Source of the DNA: a virus | Length of the DNA stretch: 25,366 nt | Reading direction: 5' to 3' (one strand) | IMG/VR virus record: IMGVR_UViG_3300009180_000202 | Span: 1-25,366 of that record | Shown: positions 5,361 through 15,923 of the stretch, one piece after another | Numbering within the stretch: the first letter of the stretch is position 1 | Layout: each line of letters starts with the position of its first letter | Position numbers and translations under genes: made by a program | Notes under the pieces: generated by a model | Database searches by the model: none | Told to the model about the DNA's origin: nothing | The model's input: only the letters and a program-made list of their open reading frames with translations

Positions 5361-5480
5361 GGTGATGGCGCTCCTCTCACTTTGTCTGCCTGCTGCTGCT
5401 TTCATTCTCTGGTGATTTGGTGGCCGCCGAAGTTTTTTCAGAGAGGAAAAAATATAGTGTTGACTCGGTGATTGGTGGCC
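5361..5480. repeat. Three GGTGAT-type repeats upstream of the AAA+ cassette
   Basis: GGTGATGGCG at 5361, GGTGATTTGGTGGCC at 5411-5425 and GGTGATTGGTGGCC at 5467-5480 are spaced 50 and 56 bp apart. The first two are preceded by TCT and the third by CTC. The last two match over 14 bases with a single-base length difference. The third copy lies inside the spacer of the candidate plus-strand promoter (5460-5487), where a bound regulator would block or guide polymerase. Confidence 0.45.
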
Positions 5481-5487
5481 CTAGATT
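5460..5487 (+). promoter_or_regulatory. Candidate promoter for the AAA+/VWA cassette
   Basis: TTGACT (5460-5465) matches the -35 consensus in five of six positions; TAGATT (5482-5487) matches the -10 in four of six, with a 16-nt spacer. Predicted transcription would start about 45 nt upstream of ATG 5541. The in-frame TTG at 5472 lies inside this promoter, which is a further reason to prefer ATG 5541 as the start of the first gene. Confidence 0.4.
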
Positions 5488-5540: not shown

Positions 5541-6569
5541 ATGAAAGTCTCACTCGAAAAGTTAATGTCGCAGCGCGTTCGCGTGCTGCTGGTCGGTTCG
5601 CCTGCGCTGGCGAAAACAGCGCGCATCCAATCAGCAGCAGACGCTGCTGGTTATAAGCTGGTGGTCATTCGCCTCTCGCTGTGCGAGCGCGTTGATCTTG
5701 GCGGCTGCTTAGTTCCAGACGTAGCGGCTGGCATCACTCGCCAGCTGCCACTCGCGCTGTTGAAATATCTGCAAACCACCACCGATAAAGTTGTCGTGCT
5801 GCTGGATGATCTGGGCCAAGCGCCGACTGATGTGCAGGCAGCTGCTATGAGTCTGTTCGACGCTGGTTTTCTTTCGCCTTCTGTCTTGATCTGGGGAGCG
5901 ACGAACAGGCCAGCAGACAAGGCTGGATGCGTTGGCCTCTGCGAGCCACTGCGCTCACGTTTCGACCTCGCCTTTGCCATGCCAACGCCAGAAGTCGGCG
6001 AAGTGGCTGGCGGGCCTGTGATGCTCTCCACTTGGCGTGAGGAGGTGGATGGCTGGTGCAACTGGGCGGCTGCGAAAGAATATGCCGCCGAGATCGTCGC
6101 ATGGCACGCTGCCACCGTTGGCCGCACGCTGTATCAATGGAAGCCAATGGCCGACCCTGCTGCGAGGATGCCAGATTTTCGCTCGTGGGAGGTGGTTGCG
6201 AAATTATGGGAGGCTGGCCTGCGCGATTTGCAGACGGTCAGCGCCGCCATTGGTAAGCCAGCCGCAAGCGAGTTTTTGGCCTTCGCTGCGCTCGCCGATC
6301 AGCTTCCAACGCCAGCGCAAATCTGGCTCGACCCAGACGGCGCTCATGTCCCCACTGAGGCAGCCGCGCAATACCTCATTGCATCCATGCTGGCTCGCGC
6401 TGTGGAACCAAAGTTCGCTCGCCAGCTTGTCGTCTACTTCTCTCGCCTGCCTCGCGTGCAAGCTGCCTTCTGCGCTCGCGCAGCTTTCAAGCGCCTCGGC
6501 GCTAAGTTAGCTGGCTCGGCTGAGTGGCAACAGTGGTTCTTGGCTAACTCTGCTCTTTTCTCATCATAA
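5541..6569 (+). CDS. MoxR/CobS-like AAA+ ATPase
   Basis: From ATG 5541 the protein is 342 aa; the frame extends up to a TTG at 5472, but that lies within a candidate promoter and adds a non-conserved Lys/Arg-rich leader. AAA+ ATPases of this class form hexamers that remodel partner proteins through a VWA-domain adaptor. Visible motifs are a variant Walker A, GSPALAKT (residues 19-26), Walker B VVVLLDDL (84-91), sensor 1 in WGATNRP (N122) and an arginine-finger region EPLRSRF (R138/R140). The Walker A has Ala-Leu-Ala where the usual loop has Gly residues, but K25-T26 are kept. It is followed at 18 nt by a DUF3150-like gene and then a VWA/metallopeptidase gene, the usual MoxR-VWA pairing. GC content and codon choice are far higher in G/C than in the replication genes downstream. 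Confidence 0.85.
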   Translation: MKVSLEKLMSQRVRVLLVGSPALAKTARIQSAADAAGYKLVVIRLSLCERVDLGGCLVPDVAAGITRQLPLALLKYLQTTTDKVVVLLDDLGQAPTDVQAAAMSLFDAGFLSPSVLIWGATNRPADKAGCVGLCEPLRSRFDLAFAMPTPEVGEVAGGPVMLSTWREEVDGWCNWAAAKEYAAEIVAWHAATVGRTLYQWKPMADPAARMPDFRSWEVVAKLWEAGLRDLQTVSAAIGKPAASEFLAFAALADQLPTPAQIWLDPDGAHVPTEAAAQYLIASMLARAVEPKFARQLVVYFSRLPRVQAAFCARAAFKRLGAKLAGSAEWQQWFLANSALFSS

Positions 6570-6587
6570 TCTAAAACATACAATACC

Positions 6588-7382
6588 ATGTCGTCATCAA
6601 ATACATTATCAACTCGCGCAGTGATTGCGCTTTTCAAAACTGGCGCTTGGCGCGCTGTCAAAACTCACGCCAGCGAATCGCAGCAGGAGAATGCACGCCA
6701 TGGCCTTACTGATGAGGCCAAGGTTCAGGTTCGCATCTGCTCTCATCCCGCATTGGCTGAAATCACTAAGCTGCACGCTGAGGCACGCGCTGCTCATTAT
6801 CGGCTTTCTCTGCCAGCGACTGATGATGGCCTTCGCCTTCTGGCTGGCAAGCGCCAGCTTGAACACTCTGATGTGATGGCTGGCTTCGCTGCGCGCCACC
6901 TCGCGCTTGTGGCCGACTTCTGCGCTGCCTATGAAGCAGAGCGCGCATCTGCTCCATTGCGGCTCAATGGCCTCTACATTGCAGCGCAATGGCCGTCTGC
7001 GAGCGAGGTTCGGGCGCGCTTTGGCTTCTCGTCGCGTTATTTGCCTGTGCCAGTCTTGGGGCAGTGGGAGGAGTGGCTCGCGGAAAGCGCCGAAAAAGCA
7101 GAAGGCGAACTCAAGGAGCGGCTCGCTGACGCTGTAACAAAGCTGGCTCACAAGCTGGCCGACCCGAAGGCCATCTTCAGAGATTCACTTCTGGGTAATC
7201 TGGCCGACATTTGCGCGCTCGCTGGCGACCTAAACTTGCGCGACGACCCGACCATATCGGCGCTCGCCACGCAAGCTGCCAGCCTGTGCGCTGTGCCAGC
7301 CGAGCAGCTGCGCGAGAGCGCCACGCTGCGCGCTTCCACAGCCAGCCGCGCCTCTGCCATTTGCTCCATGTTTAAACTCTAA
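6588..7382 (+). CDS. DUF3150-like protein, middle gene of the AAA+/VWA cassette
   Basis: This 264-aa, Ala-rich, largely helical protein has no signal peptide. The stretch from about residue 63 (LHAEARAAHYRLSLPATDDG, then RLLAGKR) to about residue 160 (WPSASEVRARFGF, then RYLPVP and a Trp-rich piece) matches my memory of the DUF3150 pattern: an ARxxHYxxxLPxxDDGxRLL block, a helical middle, then a YPSxxExRxRF/xxLPxP block. Proteins of that kind are found between CobS-like ATPases and CobT-like VWA proteins in phages and plasmids, exactly as here. No catalytic motif is visible; an adaptor or substrate-binding role for the ATPase is inference. The ATG at 6588 follows an AT-rich leader without Shine-Dalgarno. 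The family name is from memory; order and motifs are seen. Confidence 0.6.
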   Translation: MSSSNTLSTRAVIALFKTGAWRAVKTHASESQQENARHGLTDEAKVQVRICSHPALAEITKLHAEARAAHYRLSLPATDDGLRLLAGKRQLEHSDVMAGFAARHLALVADFCAAYEAERASAPLRLNGLYIAAQWPSASEVRARFGFSSRYLPVPVLGQWEEWLAESAEKAEGELKERLADAVTKLAHKLADPKAIFRDSLLGNLADICALAGDLNLRDDPTISALATQAASLCAVPAEQLRESATLRASTASRASAICSMFKL

Positions 7383-7386
7383 TCCA

Positions 7387-8577
7387 ATGACCACTCCAAT
7401 CTCAATTGATCGCGCTCGTGACTGGGCGCTGCGCTCGCCCCACGCTGTGTTTTACGGTGTGCTGGCCTCGAATCTCGCTGACGTAATGGACGACACCATC
7501 GCCACAGCCTGCACAGACGGAAAGGTCATCAGGTGGTCGCCAAAGTTCGTCGCCTCGCTCACGGAGGAGGAGATTCGCTTCGTGCTGCTGCACGAGACGC
7601 TACACTGCGCGCAAGGCCATTTCTGGCGCTTGCCTGCCAACAAGGATGGCAACATCGCTGGAGATTATGCAATCAATGCCACGCTCGCCAAGGTCGCGGG
7701 AATTAAAGCGCCAGCAGGCGCGCTTCTTGACGCGAAATTTGCAGACATGGCCGAGGAGGAAATCTTGGCCTCGCTTGCAAAGCCTGAGCCAGAGGATGAG
7801 CAAGGCCAGCCGAATGACGACAAAGGCCAAGGCCAAGGCGAAGGCGAAGGCCAAGGCGAGCCACAGCAAGGCCAAGGCGAGCCAGACGCTGGCGGCTGTG
7901 GTGGTTTCTGTGAAGCAGCGCCAGAAGCGCCAGAGGCGAAGCAGACGCTCGCCGAAAAGTGGCAGGGGGCCATCATGCAAGCCGACTTCGTTGCCAAATC
8001 CACAGGCGCTGGCAGCGCGCCAGCTGATATGCAGCGCCTCATTGACGCTGCTCGCGTCACCGCGCCAGACTGGAAGCAGGAAATGGCTGACTTTGTAAAG
8101 TCGGCTGTGAGTCAGCGCAATGACTGGTCGCGCTCGGCTCGCAGGATGGCGACCGCTCCATGCATTTATCCGCGCAGGCGCGCCGACCAAATCGGCCAGA
8201 TTGTTTTCGTGCGCGATACGTCTGGCAGTGTTGATGGCGCTGTGCTTAATGCGTTCAACGCCTTAATTGAGTCAGCAATGGCAGACACGAGCTGCTCTGC
8301 AATCGTCCTTGATGCTGACGCTAGCGTTCGCGCTGAATATCGGCTGTCTGCTGGTGACGCTGTGCCAGCTACTGCCAAGGGTGGCGGTGGCACAGCCTTT
8401 CAGCCATCATTTGAGCGCATCGCTGGCATCATTGAGGCTGGCGAGGCAGTGGCTGGCGTTGTCTATATGACAGACTTAGAAGGCCCACAGGCTGGCGCTT
8501 GTGATGTTCCTACGCTGTGGCTTTGCACCACCGACAACGTGGCCGACTTTGGCCGAACTGTGAGGGTGAGGCTGTAG
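7387..8577 (+). CDS. HExxH metallopeptidase-like plus VWA domain protein (DUF2201/CobT-like)
   Basis: This 396-aa protein has three parts. The N-terminal domain carries VLLHETLHCAQGHF, an HExxH zinc site (H69, E70, H73), followed by GDYAIN (about 92-97) as in the putative metallopeptidase domain of DUF2201 proteins. Residues about 133-180 are an acidic, Gln/Gly/Glu-rich linker encoded by near-perfect GGCCAA/GGCGAA repeats. The C-terminal VWA-like domain begins at about 270 with FVRDTSGSVDG, an intact DxSxS metal-ion site (D277, S279, S281), then GGGGTAF and MTDLEG for the remaining MIDAS positions. CobT/DUF2201-type VWA proteins work with MoxR/CobS AAA+ ATPases, and such an ATPase is two genes upstream. 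Whether it cleaves protein, chelates metal or only scaffolds is unknown. The gene ends just before a strong hairpin. Confidence 0.85.
   Translation: MTTPISIDRARDWALRSPHAVFYGVLASNLADVMDDTIATACTDGKVIRWSPKFVASLTEEEIRFVLLHETLHCAQGHFWRLPANKDGNIAGDYAINATLAKVAGIKAPAGALLDAKFADMAEEEILASLAKPEPEDEQGQPNDDKGQGQGEGEGQGEPQQGQGEPDAGGCGGFCEAAPEAPEAKQTLAEKWQGAIMQADFVAKSTGAGSAPADMQRLIDAARVTAPDWKQEMADFVKSAVSQRNDWSRSARRMATAPCIYPRRRADQIGQIVFVRDTSGSVDGAVLNAFNALIESAMADTSCSAIVLDADASVRAEYRLSAGDAVPATAKGGGGTAFQPSFERIAGIIEAGEAVAGVVYMTDLEGPQAGACDVPTLWLCTTDNVADFGRTVRVRL
7823..7885. repeat. Short tandem GGCCAA/GGCGAA repeats within the VWA gene
   Basis: A run of in-frame hexamers encodes alternating Gly-Gln and Gly-Glu in the linker between the peptidase-like and VWA domains. 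Units keep the reading frame, so expansion or contraction would change linker length without frameshift. Confidence 0.75.
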
Positions 8578-8671: not shown

Positions 8672-8884
8672 ATGAAAAAATACATACACGATCCGCTCGT
8701 GCGCGCTACACTGCGCGCACAGGCCAAGACATCAGTGGGGAGGCTCGCCTCCTTGCTTGCCACAGAGGCGCGTTGGAGCCGCAAGGCCACCATCGCACGC
8801 AATCAACTCGCCAAGGCGCGCAAATCAATTGCGCGGCTGGCTCAAGACATGGCGGCCAAGCTGTTAAAGGAGGAACTCCAATGA
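8672..8884 (+). CDS. 70-aa basic helical protein, unknown function
   Basis: Starting at ATG 8672 gives MKKYIHDPLVRATLRAQ and then a continuous Arg/Lys/Ala-rich helix to LLKEELQ. The frame can be extended to ATG 8591 or TTG 8582, but those starts would put the terminator-like hairpin (8594-8619) and the palindrome (8653-8666) inside the coding region and add a hydrophobic Pro/Phe-rich leader unlike the rest, so I prefer 8672. The strongly basic, helical composition suggests nucleic-acid or membrane binding, without a recognisable family. Its last codons contain the AAAGGAGG Shine-Dalgarno of the next gene, which overlaps it by ATGA, so the two form a coupled pair. It is GC-rich like the cassette before it. 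Confidence 0.6.
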   Translation: MKKYIHDPLVRATLRAQAKTSVGRLASLLATEARWSRKATIARNQLAKARKSIARLAQDMAAKLLKEELQ

Positions 8885-9471
8885 TCTACAATAAAGAACT
8901 ATTCGACGAACTAGAAAAGCTCGGCTGGCCTGCTAACATCAAGCTGACCAATGGAAGCACTGATCTGTATAGCTTTCATCATTCTACGCACAAACTGTGC
9001 GTTCAGCCAATAGATGCTAAAGGGCCAAATCCAAAGCCAGACAATGGCACGCGCTGCACGATGCACTGCACGCATTATGACGCTAAAGGAGAGCATAAGA
9101 TAAAGCCCATCCGCATTGACATGGCGAAAAGACATTGGCGAAAACATCTAATAGCTGCGTATACGGTGATGGTGATGCACTTGCAACAGGTGAATGATAT
9201 TCATTCAGAGCGAGATAATCGCATCAAACAGATGCAGCAAAAGAAGAAGGATGAGTATACGGCCTTCTGCGCTCCGCTTGGCGTAGAAGCCAGCGAATTT
9301 GCAAAAGCGTTCAGACATTCATATTCAGACAAAGATGGATATTGCTCGCTCCATAGCACAGTTAGTTACAGCTTATCAAATACAGAAGAAAAATGCGCGT
9401 TGCTTTTCAAGTATCTAAAAGATAATGATTGGCTTGGCTTTATTGATTTCACAACTCCAACGACCTACTGA
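8881..9471 (+). CDS. 196-aa protein of unknown function
   Basis: ATG 8881 has a strong upstream AAAGGAGG and overlaps the preceding stop by ATGA, so the start is secure even though the frame is open further upstream. The protein is soluble and mixed: an acidic N-terminal helix (ELFDELEKLGWP), a Cys/His-rich middle (TRCTMHCTHYDAKGEHK, residues about 57-73), a long helix with MQQKKKDEY near residue 120, and an aromatic C-terminus. The spacing of C59, C63 and H65 could hold a metal, but no zinc-finger pattern is complete. Base composition drops to AT-rich across this gene, marking the passage from the GC-rich cassette to the early genes. I recognise no family and infer no function. Confidence 0.7.
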   Translation: MIYNKELFDELEKLGWPANIKLTNGSTDLYSFHHSTHKLCVQPIDAKGPNPKPDNGTRCTMHCTHYDAKGEHKIKPIRIDMAKRHWRKHLIAAYTVMVMHLQQVNDIHSERDNRIKQMQQKKKDEYTAFCAPLGVEASEFAKAFRHSYSDKDGYCSLHSTVSYSLSNTEEKCALLFKYLKDNDWLGFIDFTTPTTY

Positions 9472-10449: not shown

Positions 10450-10670
10450 GAATCTACGCATGGAAAGCGGAAGATTTATTTGATAAAGATATAGAGTATG
10501 CAGACGTTGAAATGATTGATTCTATGAGTGATCTAAAAAAACAGATTGCGCGTTTATGTGTAAACCCAGATACGGTAAAAATAGTTAAGATTGGAGATTT
10601 TAATTTGTGCGAATGGGAAGCGCAAAGCGGTCATAACTCTAAATGGAAAAGATTTAATATAAAGTCATGA
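10446..10670 (+). CDS. 74-aa early protein, unknown function
   Basis: A strong Shine-Dalgarno (AAAGGAGG) inside the previous gene and an ATGA overlap define ATG 10446. The product is acidic at the start (AEDLFDKDIEYADVEMID), then has a helix (SDLKKQIARLCVNPDTVKIV) and a Trp/Ser/Lys end. The alpha/beta pattern suggests a small globular domain. No motif or family is recognised. It ends with an ATGA overlap into the nuclease-like gene. Confidence 0.65.
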   Translation: MRIYAWKAEDLFDKDIEYADVEMIDSMSDLKKQIARLCVNPDTVKIVKIGDFNLCEWEAQSGHNSKWKRFNIKS

Positions 10671-11134
10671 ACCTAGACTGCAACACACCTAATGGTAGGA
10701 TATACATAAACCACGCCTACGATGTAATGGATAGGGTGGCACAGAAGTTTAGAGCCAAGGCTGTCTTTACGGATGATGATGGCATTGCAGACATTGACGC
10801 TTTGTTTACACGCGATAACAAGTTAGTGGCTATTGCGGAGATTAAAAGTAGGAATCTATCTAAAGAAAAACTGGAGGCATTTGGTTCTTATCTGATAACA
10901 CAAGATAAGATCGAAAGAGGGATTGCGCTATCTGTGGCATTACAAGTTCCATATTTTGTCATGGTAAAACTGATTGCCAGCGACATCATTGCCATGTGGA
11001 AAATCACTGACAATCATGGGATGATTGAGTGCAAAAGTTATTGCGAAGTTACAACAACTAAAGCCACCTGTAATGGTGGAGAAGCAAACAGATTAAACGC
11101 TTTTCTTGCTATAGATAACTGTATTTATATATGA
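10667..11134 (+). CDS. Putative PD-(D/E)XK nuclease, small
   Basis: The protein is 155 aa. The core ADIDALFTRDNKLVAIAEIK (residues 41-60) shows the D-(about 14)-E-x-K spacing of the PD-(D/E)XK nuclease fold, with D44 (or D42), E58 and K60 as candidate catalytic residues. An N-terminal helix (YDVMDRVAQKFRAK) and a following helix (EKLEAFGSYLITQDK) fit the expected alpha-beta-beta-beta-alpha order. Small enzymes of this type act as Holliday-junction resolvases, restriction-like endonucleases or host-DNA nucleases. It lies between small unknown genes and the Nmad1-like gene, coupled at both ends by ATGA overlaps. The active-site pattern is seen; substrate is unknown. Confidence 0.6.
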   Translation: MNLDCNTPNGRIYINHAYDVMDRVAQKFRAKAVFTDDDGIADIDALFTRDNKLVAIAEIKSRNLSKEKLEAFGSYLITQDKIERGIALSVALQVPYFVMVKLIASDIIAMWKITDNHGMIECKSYCEVTTTKATCNGGEANRLNAFLAIDNCIYI

Positions 11135-11610
11135 ACATAACACTAGAAAACACGCGCTGGCTTGGAACTGGAGACACTATTCGCTCCACAGATTACATCG
11201 CTATGCAAGACGACGAAAACCAATATGATTTCATTGCCGTTGGAGGGGAATACGACGGCCATATTCTGGACGGTACAGAGGAATATGAGTTTAGGAGGCT
11301 CAATGTCCAAGACCCTGTAGACCTGTTGTGCATTGAGTACGACATCCAAACGGAAATGGGGCGAGCAGCATTGATTATTGCTCTGGAAAACGTAGCAACG
11401 CTTGATCGTAAGCAACGTGATTACGGATCACGCAATATTTCCGAGTTTGGTGAAATAGGTATTCTCATGCGTGTATGGGATAAAATTTGCCGTCTCAAAA
11501 ATTTAATGGGAAAAGAAAACCCTAAGAATGAATCTATAGATGATTCATGGCTTGACATGGCTAATTACGCCATCATCGCTATTTTAGTTCGCAGGGGAAT
11601 TTGGAAATAA
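11131..11610 (+). CDS. Nmad1-like (nucleotide modification associated) domain protein
   Basis: The C-terminal half (about residues 85-159) reads LDRKQRDYGS, GEIGILMRVWDKICRLKNLM, then ESIDDSWLDMANYAIIAIL. This matches the Nmad1/DUF1599 pattern: K-x-x-D-Y-G, R-x-x-D-K-x-x-R-L and E-S-x-x-D-x-x-D-x-A-N-Y-A. That all-helical fold resembles MazG/dUTPase-type nucleotide pyrophosphohydrolases and is found in phages with modified nucleotide metabolism. The N-terminal 80 residues (DYIAMQDDENQYDFIAVGGE) form a separate beta-rich domain I do not recognise, so the protein looks like a fusion. A role in trimming the dNTP pool or supporting DNA modification is inference. A 42-nt gap follows before the SSB-like gene. 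Confidence 0.7.
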   Translation: MNITLENTRWLGTGDTIRSTDYIAMQDDENQYDFIAVGGEYDGHILDGTEEYEFRRLNVQDPVDLLCIEYDIQTEMGRAALIIALENVATLDRKQRDYGSRNISEFGEIGILMRVWDKICRLKNLMGKENPKNESIDDSWLDMANYAIIAILVRRGIWK

Positions 11611-14413: not shown

Positions 14414-14488
14414 GCCTTTGTAGCTCAGTGGTAGAGCATCTGTTTTGTAAACAGGCGGTCGCAGGTTCAAATCCCGCCAAAGGCTCCA
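14414..14488 (+). tRNA. tRNA-Thr, anticodon TGT, CCA encoded
   Basis: The cloverleaf is complete: acceptor stem GCCTTTG (14414-14420) with CAAAGGC (14478-14484), discriminator T and encoded CCA (14486-14488). The D-arm is GCTC/GAGC, the anticodon stem TCTGT/ACAGG with loop TTTGTAA, and the anticodon TGT (14446-14448), reading ACA. The T-arm has loop TTCAAAT, but its stem (GCAGG/CCCGC) contains one A-C mismatch. It begins 7 nt after the helicase stop and is probably processed from the replication mRNA. It could supplement the host pool for ACA codons used by the AT-rich phage genes. Confidence 0.93.
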
Positions 14489-15450: not shown

Positions 15451-15648
15451 ATGAATACAACAGACATCAACACAATCGTTAGCTCATACGTCGATATGCT
15501 CAAAGATGGGCAAATTGACCTCCAAGACGCTTATGAGAACGGCGACCACAAAACTTATTTCTCTGCTATTGAGCGTCACTTGAAGCTCACAGAGGCTATC
15601 GACACAGGCTTAATGGCTACGCAAAAGATTAAAGCTCTTAGCGAATGA
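15451..15648 (+). CDS. 65-aa helical protein, unknown function
   Basis: The gene starts 4 nt after the HNH stop and overlaps the SWIM gene start as ATGA. The sequence is helical and acidic: INTIVSSYVDMLKDGQIDLQ, DAYENGDHKTYFSAIERHL and then KLTEAIDTGLMATQKIKAL. The repeated helix-turn-helix-like spacing suggests a small helical bundle. No catalytic motif and no membrane segment are seen. Function not inferred. Confidence 0.65.
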   Translation: MNTTDINTIVSSYVDMLKDGQIDLQDAYENGDHKTYFSAIERHLKLTEAIDTGLMATQKIKALSE

Positions 15649-15923
15649 AGGTTGAGTTTACAGGAGACAAGGGCTGTTATTTCGTGGATAGTACTGATAG
15701 TACTACGAGGCACAAAGTGGATATTCTAGCCCTGCGCGGAAAGGATATGCGCTGCAACGGCCAATGTTCCTGTAGAGATTTTGAGACTAGATGTTCTCCT
15801 GAGTGGGCTAAAAGCGGCACTATAGTAGAGCGTGATGAACCTAATTACACACGCTGTAAGCACATCACGGCTGTTATCTACGCTATAGGGAATAGGTACG
15901 CAGACCACATGAGCATCCAATGA
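15645..15923 (+). CDS. Small SWIM zinc-finger protein
   Basis: The 92-aa protein contains CSCRDFETRC followed by RCKHITAVIYA. The spacing is C41-x-C43-(27)-C71-x-H73, the signature of a SWIM zinc finger (C-x-C-xn-C-x-H), which binds DNA or protein in recombination factors, helicases and transposases. The remainder is a short beta-rich N-terminal piece and a C-terminal helix. SWIM domains are usually part of large proteins; a 92-aa stand-alone form in a phage replication block is uncommon. It overlaps the genes on both sides by ATGA and lies beside an HNH protein and an exonuclease, consistent with a recombination or junction-binding accessory. The motif is seen; the role is inference. Confidence 0.7.
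   Translation: MKVEFTGDKGCYFVDSTDSTTRHKVDILALRGKDMRCNGQCSCRDFETRCSPEWAKSGTIVERDEPNYTRCKHITAVIYAIGNRYADHMSIQ

Follow-up and report, generated by a model that had tools for sequence, protein, structure and literature searches.

A three-gene AAA+, DUF3150 and zincin-VWA module shared by phages, plasmids and integrated elements

Results

The cassette in the window

The stretch of DNA analysed here, called the window, is the whole IMG/VR virus record IMGVR_UViG_3300009180_000202, a linear sequence of 25,366 bp which may be part of a larger genome. Three adjacent genes of the window code for an AAA+ ATPase (A), a DUF3150-like protein (D) and a protein joining a zincin metallopeptidase domain to a VWA domain (V). 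A first-pass annotation made from the sequence alone had proposed this arrangement at positions 5541-8577, and the matches to Pfam, PHROG and Protein Data Bank (PDB) profiles together with the motifs confirm it. The genes are closely spaced, with 18 nt between A and D and 4 nt between D and V, and all three are under purifying selection (ratio of nonsynonymous to synonymous divergence, dN/dS, of 0.16, 0.08 and 0.15 for A, D and V, respectively, in the comparison with the relative L003). The terminase, the portal and other structural genes run leftward on the minus strand from about 4.8-5.5 kb, and the non-structural block runs rightward on the plus strand with the cassette as its first genes, as had been noted. 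Upstream of the cassette there is one weak sigma70-like match; promoter-like matches number 6 in this region compared with 2.6 ± 1.9 in shuffled sequences.

Table 1. Coordinates of the cassette, its motifs and other features of the window
Feature	Position	Strand	Description
AAA+ ATPase (A)	5541-6569	+	342 aa; MoxR/midasin-type; Walker A GSPALAKT, Walker B VVLLDD, sensor-1 N122, arginine R140
DUF3150 protein (D)	6588-7382	+	264 aa; long helices and small beta layer; proposed third or adaptor subunit
Zincin-VWA protein (V)	7387-8577	+	396 aa; N-terminal selecase-like metallopeptidase domain, C-terminal VWA
Zincin site of V	residues 69-97		HETLH 69-73 plus N89/D93/N97
Metal ion-dependent adhesion site (MIDAS) of V	residues 277-363		DTSGS...T...D, complete; D277, S279, S281, T336, D363
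70-aa basic protein	8672-8884	+	near-identical in L003; only in closest relatives; high GC like the cassette
X4	8881-9471	+	196 aa; no known family; homologues at the same position in almost every member of the window's clade
Sigma70-like match	5460-5487		weak
PDDEXK_14 nuclease	10667-11134		in the plus-strand block; match at 1e-8
DUF1599 protein	11131-11610		in the plus-strand block; 'nucleotide modification associated', match at 7e-6
tRNA-Thr (TGT)	14414-14488		in the plus-strand block
Small protein with SWIM-like motif	15645-15923		CxC...CxH

The ATPase

Protein A alone has a weak Pfam score (0.013), but it matches PHROG 1297 ('ATPase') at 2e-40, and the profile of its family finds midasin (4e-47) and NorQ (1.6e-10) in the PDB, with NorQ/CbbQ matches down to 5e-9. 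When 39 homologues were compared, 30 were assigned to AAA_5, 11 to bpMoxR and 8 to AAA_3, and the Walker A and B, sensor 1 and arginine motifs which mark the MoxR clade of AAA+ proteins were present. The RavA family was not matched by A in Pfam or NCBIfam, and the length of 342 aa is also unlike RavA.

The Walker A sequence GSPALAKT had been described as a variant. It does depart from the GxPGxGK[ST] of most relatives while retaining the lysine, Lys25 in A, and the threonine; it is, however, no anomaly. An alanine in front of the lysine is found throughout the clade (GQPALAKT, GPPGCAKT, GPPGTAKT), and solved RavA structures, one of them titled RavA with Mg-ADP, show GPPGIAKS. The motif is therefore not the mark of a dead ATPase and, as far as its residues tell, is an ordinary MoxR-type Walker A.

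The zincin-VWA protein

V matches DUF2201_N (7e-31; 108 bits, gathering threshold 23.2) and DUF2201 (4e-14; 53 bits, gathering threshold 26.4) in Pfam, both above gathering. The HETLH and the intact DTSGS that had been read from the sequence are present, and H69, E70, H73, N89, D93 and N97 of the zincin site as well as the five MIDAS residues of Table 1 are invariant over 38 viral homologues. By a pattern count only, the exact string D[TSA]SGS is missing in 24 of 173 V sequences, 23 of which come from bacterial contigs.

The predicted structures of D and V were built solely from the window and the viral-contig rows of the alignments. For V the mean predicted local distance difference test (pLDDT) is 87 and the predicted template modelling score (pTM) 0.61, so that the arrangement of the domains is unsure, and a low-confidence linker lies near residues 141-163. 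The N-terminal part resembles the selecase of M. jannaschii (4qhi; TM 0.57 by target length, 2.3 Å, 77 alignment columns) and the C-terminal part aligns with VWA domains including the MIDAS domain of midasin and NorD; the E-values of these fold matches are weak (0.002 at best), yet many have a Foldseek probability near 1.

In PHROG 1314 and in RefSeq phage records (for example N4 gp25, L006:5965-7107) the V family is labelled 'HNH endonuclease'. Since no HNH family is among the Pfam matches of V and the model consists of a zincin and a VWA domain, this label looks like a propagated misannotation. In two relatives repetitive sequence encoding Gly-Tyr/Asp runs follows directly after the VWA gene (L029:11228-12357 and L019:4816-5133).

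The DUF3150 protein

The window's D protein stays below the threshold for the Pfam family DUF3150 (PF11348) with 15.4 bits against a gathering score of 24.9 (E 0.012), while 7 of 34 relatives reach DUF3150 at E≤0.001, the best at 1.7e-6. Its structure is predicted with high confidence (pLDDT 93, pTM 0.83). Searching the PDB with this model gave nothing at E≤0.001 (best 0.14, TM 0.22), and a DUF3150-named phage protein was matched with a Foldseek E-value of 3e-15. PADLOC and NCBIfam searches yielded no usable name for the cassette proteins; the only PADLOC family matched was DpdH, weakly (7e-4) and by one DUF3150 member. We found no mention of 'DUF3150' in the literature, which is weak evidence of absence as only open-access papers were covered.

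Mycobacterium phage Dylan gp94 and HVTV-1 gp25 were considered as distant DUF3150 proteins. Their fold matches to the D model (2e-3 and 0.03, respectively) came with weak hmmsearch support in a set of 12 proteins and no support from hhalign, and they are kept as a lead only. In Dylan, a Corndog-type phage (L178, 37933-40525), gp94, whose fold is possibly DUF3150-like, adjoins gp95, an AAA ATPase.

Distribution and linkage of the three genes

Viral and bacterial relatives were collected with V probes from DUF3150-bearing members; the best 80 of 405 V relatives in uncultivated viruses and the best 80 of 452 in bacterial contigs were read, and linkage was counted at those loci where the flank on either side measured 5 kb or more. 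All 40 such viral loci have A and 30 have D too, always on the same strand, and the complete triad is present at 46 of 51 bacterial loci; owing to the choice of probes they should be read as upper estimates where the VWA family at large is concerned. In uncultivated phages and bacterial elements the three genes are consistent neighbours, and the set is kept while its order shuffles (ADV in 19, DAV in 8 and AVD in 3 of the 30 viral triads).

Among 50,697 records of cultivated phages, 292 contain a V relative, mostly N4-like phages (N4 gp24/gp25) and some jumbo phages. DUF3150 is found in only four of the 50,697 records, namely three 65,014-bp Planktothrix/Synechococcus phages and Tunturiibacter phage Tunturi_3, and most cultivated isolates therefore carry a two-gene version. 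Outside of phages, D occurs in 36 records of the plasmid collection, and of the 80 bacterial contigs at least 21 have the genes beside type IV secretion genes and at least 18 near a PRTRC ThiF gene; several of these contigs share phage genes with proviruses. The cassette had been called phage-borne, and phages do carry it, but conjugative plasmids, PRTRC islands and prophages commonly have the triad as well. On Burkholderiales plasmids and Acidobacteria contigs the triad is often 10 kb or less from PRTRC ThiF (L106, L108, L110, L125, L163 and others), a gene belonging to another uncharacterised mobile-element system.

Co-inheritance and exchange

The distance matrices of the three proteins, computed for 78 dereplicated loci, are correlated (Mantel correlation 0.84 for A/V, 0.76 for D/V and 0.73 for A/D; the highest of 1000 permutations was 0.18). 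This shows that A, D and V are co-inherited; the correlation alone is no proof of contact. Phage and cellular rows are intermingled in the V tree, with at least 17 label changes, 8-10 of them forced by starred branches; phages and cellular elements have thus exchanged the gene repeatedly, at least 8-10 times.

The triad of the window forms, together with the 70-aa gene, a sharp GC island: its third-position GC content (GC3) is 0.61-0.67, whereas the other genes sampled have 0.31-0.48, and cassette GC is above that of the surroundings in every clade relative checked. Between the window and L002 the synonymous divergence dS is 0.45 in V and 1.40 in DnaB, a contrast hinting at recombination at the cassette.

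Neighbouring genes

Genes within 10 kb of the cassette in viral, plasmid and bacterial loci were clustered into families, and several clusters that proved to be antisense shadows of A, D or V were discarded. In 68 viral and plasmid groups A is present in 63 and D in 47; next come family A DNA polymerase and SNF2-type helicase in up to 16 groups. No further neighbour family occurs in more than 16 of these groups or in more than 4 of 30 bacterial groups. Hence no travelling client is detectable within 10 kb, which agrees with the earlier impression that the cassette has no obvious client.

Within the window's own clade the gene X4 is a recurrent neighbour. It is present in L002, L003, L004, L020-L024, L026, L029, L051 and the metagenome-assembled contig L097; no match was obtained in L025, and L019 ends too early to tell. 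A profile of distant X4 members recovers the window's group at E-values of 4e-12 to 7e-11, whereas beyond this clade X4 had no match. We regard X4 as a candidate adaptor or clade-specific client. The SWIM-like protein is encoded further downstream (Table 1); SWIM proteins go along with some bacterial MoxR-VWA operons.

The replication genes in the flanks suggest that the module could remodel replication or recombination complexes of the element itself, for example by helping a helicase, primase or exonuclease to be loaded or recycled. At least one gene for PolA, primase, DnaB, SNF2-type helicase or PD-(D/E)XK exonuclease lies on the same strand within the 10-kb flanks in 24 of 54 viral groups, and in several clade relatives a primase is next after X4. 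However, none of these families is a general neighbour, the replication genes differ in plasmid and PRTRC contexts, and an abundance of such genes is in any case usual for early phage blocks. We consider a replication client of this kind improbable.

Insertion of a cofactor or metal, that is enzyme activation in the manner of CobS/CobT, Mg-chelatase or NorQ/NorD, is far harder to maintain. The A profile is similar to NorQ and CbbQ, and V has a weak fold match to NorD, but the CobS/CobT family models of Pfam and NCBIfam match none of the three proteins, and no metalloenzyme or cofactor gene is general in the neighbourhoods. A zincin domain in addition is not known from any of these systems. The cobalt or magnesium chelatase-like role raised in the first-pass annotation thus found no support, and we judge this explanation very improbable.

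A proposed swap in the third slot

Viral loci having AAA and VWA genes without DUF3150 can carry another gene. A family of 236 aa, typically located between A and V, is present at 10 such loci (L047, L053, L061-L063, L066, L067, L077-L079) and at none of 53 DUF3150-bearing loci (Fisher p 9e-8, kinship ignored and with four groups only). The idea that this middle protein is a cryptic DUF3150 was discarded, as it has no profile similarity to DUF3150. We infer that the 236-aa protein and D replace one another as third subunit, and on this reading D is a candidate adaptor.

Discussion

The three genes form a module, here called ADV, which is inherited together and has moved among phages, plasmids and integrated elements. 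The idea of a MoxR-VWA remodelling system is supported by our analysis, and we are confident that the module belongs to the class of remodelling machines built from a MoxR/midasin-type AAA+ protein and a zincin-VWA protein. In established MoxR-VWA biology the VWA protein takes hold of a client peptide, and remodelling is powered by the ATPase ring (summarized in PMC7159879). By analogy, A would form a ring and dock V, and the ring would pull on a client held through the MIDAS of V. D may be the adaptor that selects or bridges to the client, as the third-slot swap suggests, and the conserved zincin site might cut the client or clip a regulatory peptide. The most uncertain step is the client itself, possibly a host complex of transcription, replication/repair or defence that would be remodelled early after entry.

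For this last step we rely on the neighbourhoods and on the distribution. Across dozens of divergent elements the module is accompanied by no client gene of its own, and a host complex therefore appears a likelier client than an element-specific enzyme. The distribution also bears on virion assembly, according to which the module would be a chaperone with peptidolytic processing of structural proteins. This role has been published as a proposal for the same kind of pair in group 2.2 jumbo phages (PMC7824862), and the passages on the archaeal virus ATV in PMC7824862 and PMC7911831 cite a MoxR-type role, without peptidase, in its tail development. In addition, the PA5oct ATPase record bears an 'ESI-MS/MS' note, and the ATPase gp265 is listed in phAPEC6 particles, its family membership being deduced from gene order alone (six genes from thymidylate synthase, as in RaK2). 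The phAPEC6 particle list contains thymidylate synthase too, however, so carry-over is possible. Moreover, 12 viral loci contain a clustered terminase family, and its gene there lies on the other strand, as in the window; conjugative plasmids and PRTRC islands, where the triad is common, make no virions. Virion assembly can therefore not be what the triad does in general. We prefer a client outside the element and think it unlikely that the function lies in making particles.

If the client is a host complex, it could be an immune complex which the module disarms; such an anti-defence factor is a special case overlapping with the host-client reading. Phages and conjugative plasmids have the module in common, exchange it repeatedly and face the same defences, and MoxR-vWA couples serve in bacterial conflict systems (PMC7159879). 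On the other hand, no linked known anti-defence gene was identified, and the DpdH match mentioned above is the only one from PADLOC. We see an anti-defence function as a possibility, albeit a rather unlikely one.

Several observations weigh against our preferred reading of a remodelling machine with an adaptor and a host client. The HExxH string is missing in 8 of 173 V sequences, including the plasmid members L017 and L018, and proteolysis can thus not be required in every member. The same-strand replication genes in 24 of 54 viral groups would fit a replication client equally well, and the linkage of A and D to V may be lower in the wider family than our probes make it appear. Taken as a whole, the statement that A forms a ring, V acts as zincin-VWA co-chaperone, D is the adaptor and the client is not encoded beside the module and is probably a host complex comes, in our estimation, close to an even chance without quite reaching it. 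In a bolder version, ADV would be a hitherto undescribed ATP-driven protease or remodeller of three components that phages and conjugative elements share; its adaptor, DUF3150, would have a fold not seen before, and on entry the machine would disarm or reprogram a host complex that is conserved. This version is speculative and rather doubtful.

A module that is widespread and kept together despite the shuffling of its order suggests a function which different bacterial parasites seem to need in common. Even in the model phage N4 the AAA/VWA pair has no assigned function or is mislabelled 'HNH endonuclease'. With DUF3150 as candidate adaptor and the proposed swap in the third slot, the question of the client becomes testable, since an adaptor should set the target.

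Comparison with known systems

The AAA/VWA pair as such is already known from N4 and from jumbo phages. In the open-access literature we came upon no account of the three genes as one set with DUF3150 as third component, of their occurrence across phages, plasmids and islands, of the D model that lacks a PDB counterpart or of the third-slot swap. N4 gp24/gp25 (Schitoviridae; PHROG 1297/1314) belong to the same AAA and zincin-VWA families with the same order and strand; they differ in having no DUF3150 gene alongside, a canonical GxPGxGKS-type Walker A and a DE Walker B. The pair of RavA and ViaA likewise consists of a MoxR ATPase, with a Walker A of the GPPGIAKS type, and a VWA partner, but RavA has about 498 aa compared with 342 aa for A, and there is no DUF3150. 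ViaA is not known to have a zincin domain.

NorQ-NorD and CbbQ-CbbO are related through the profile matches of A and the weak fold match of V to NorD. These systems work on a metalloenzyme or on rubisco encoded nearby, whereas the cassette has neither as a neighbour. Group 2.2 jumbo phages have a MoxR protein and a vWA domain fused to an N-terminal metallopeptidase domain, proposed to function in virion assembly with processing (Iyer et al. 2021, PMC7824862); this pair consists of two genes, while the cassette of the window has three, lies in the non-structural block and occurs also on plasmids. The vWA-MoxR-VMAP ternary systems, conflict systems found mainly in multicellular bacteria (Kaur et al. 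2020, PMC7159879), resemble ADV in combining a MoxR-vWA couple with a third core protein. The VMAP family is absent from the Pfam matches of the cassette proteins: the third protein is VMAP there and DUF3150-like here, and the module of the window rides on mobile elements.

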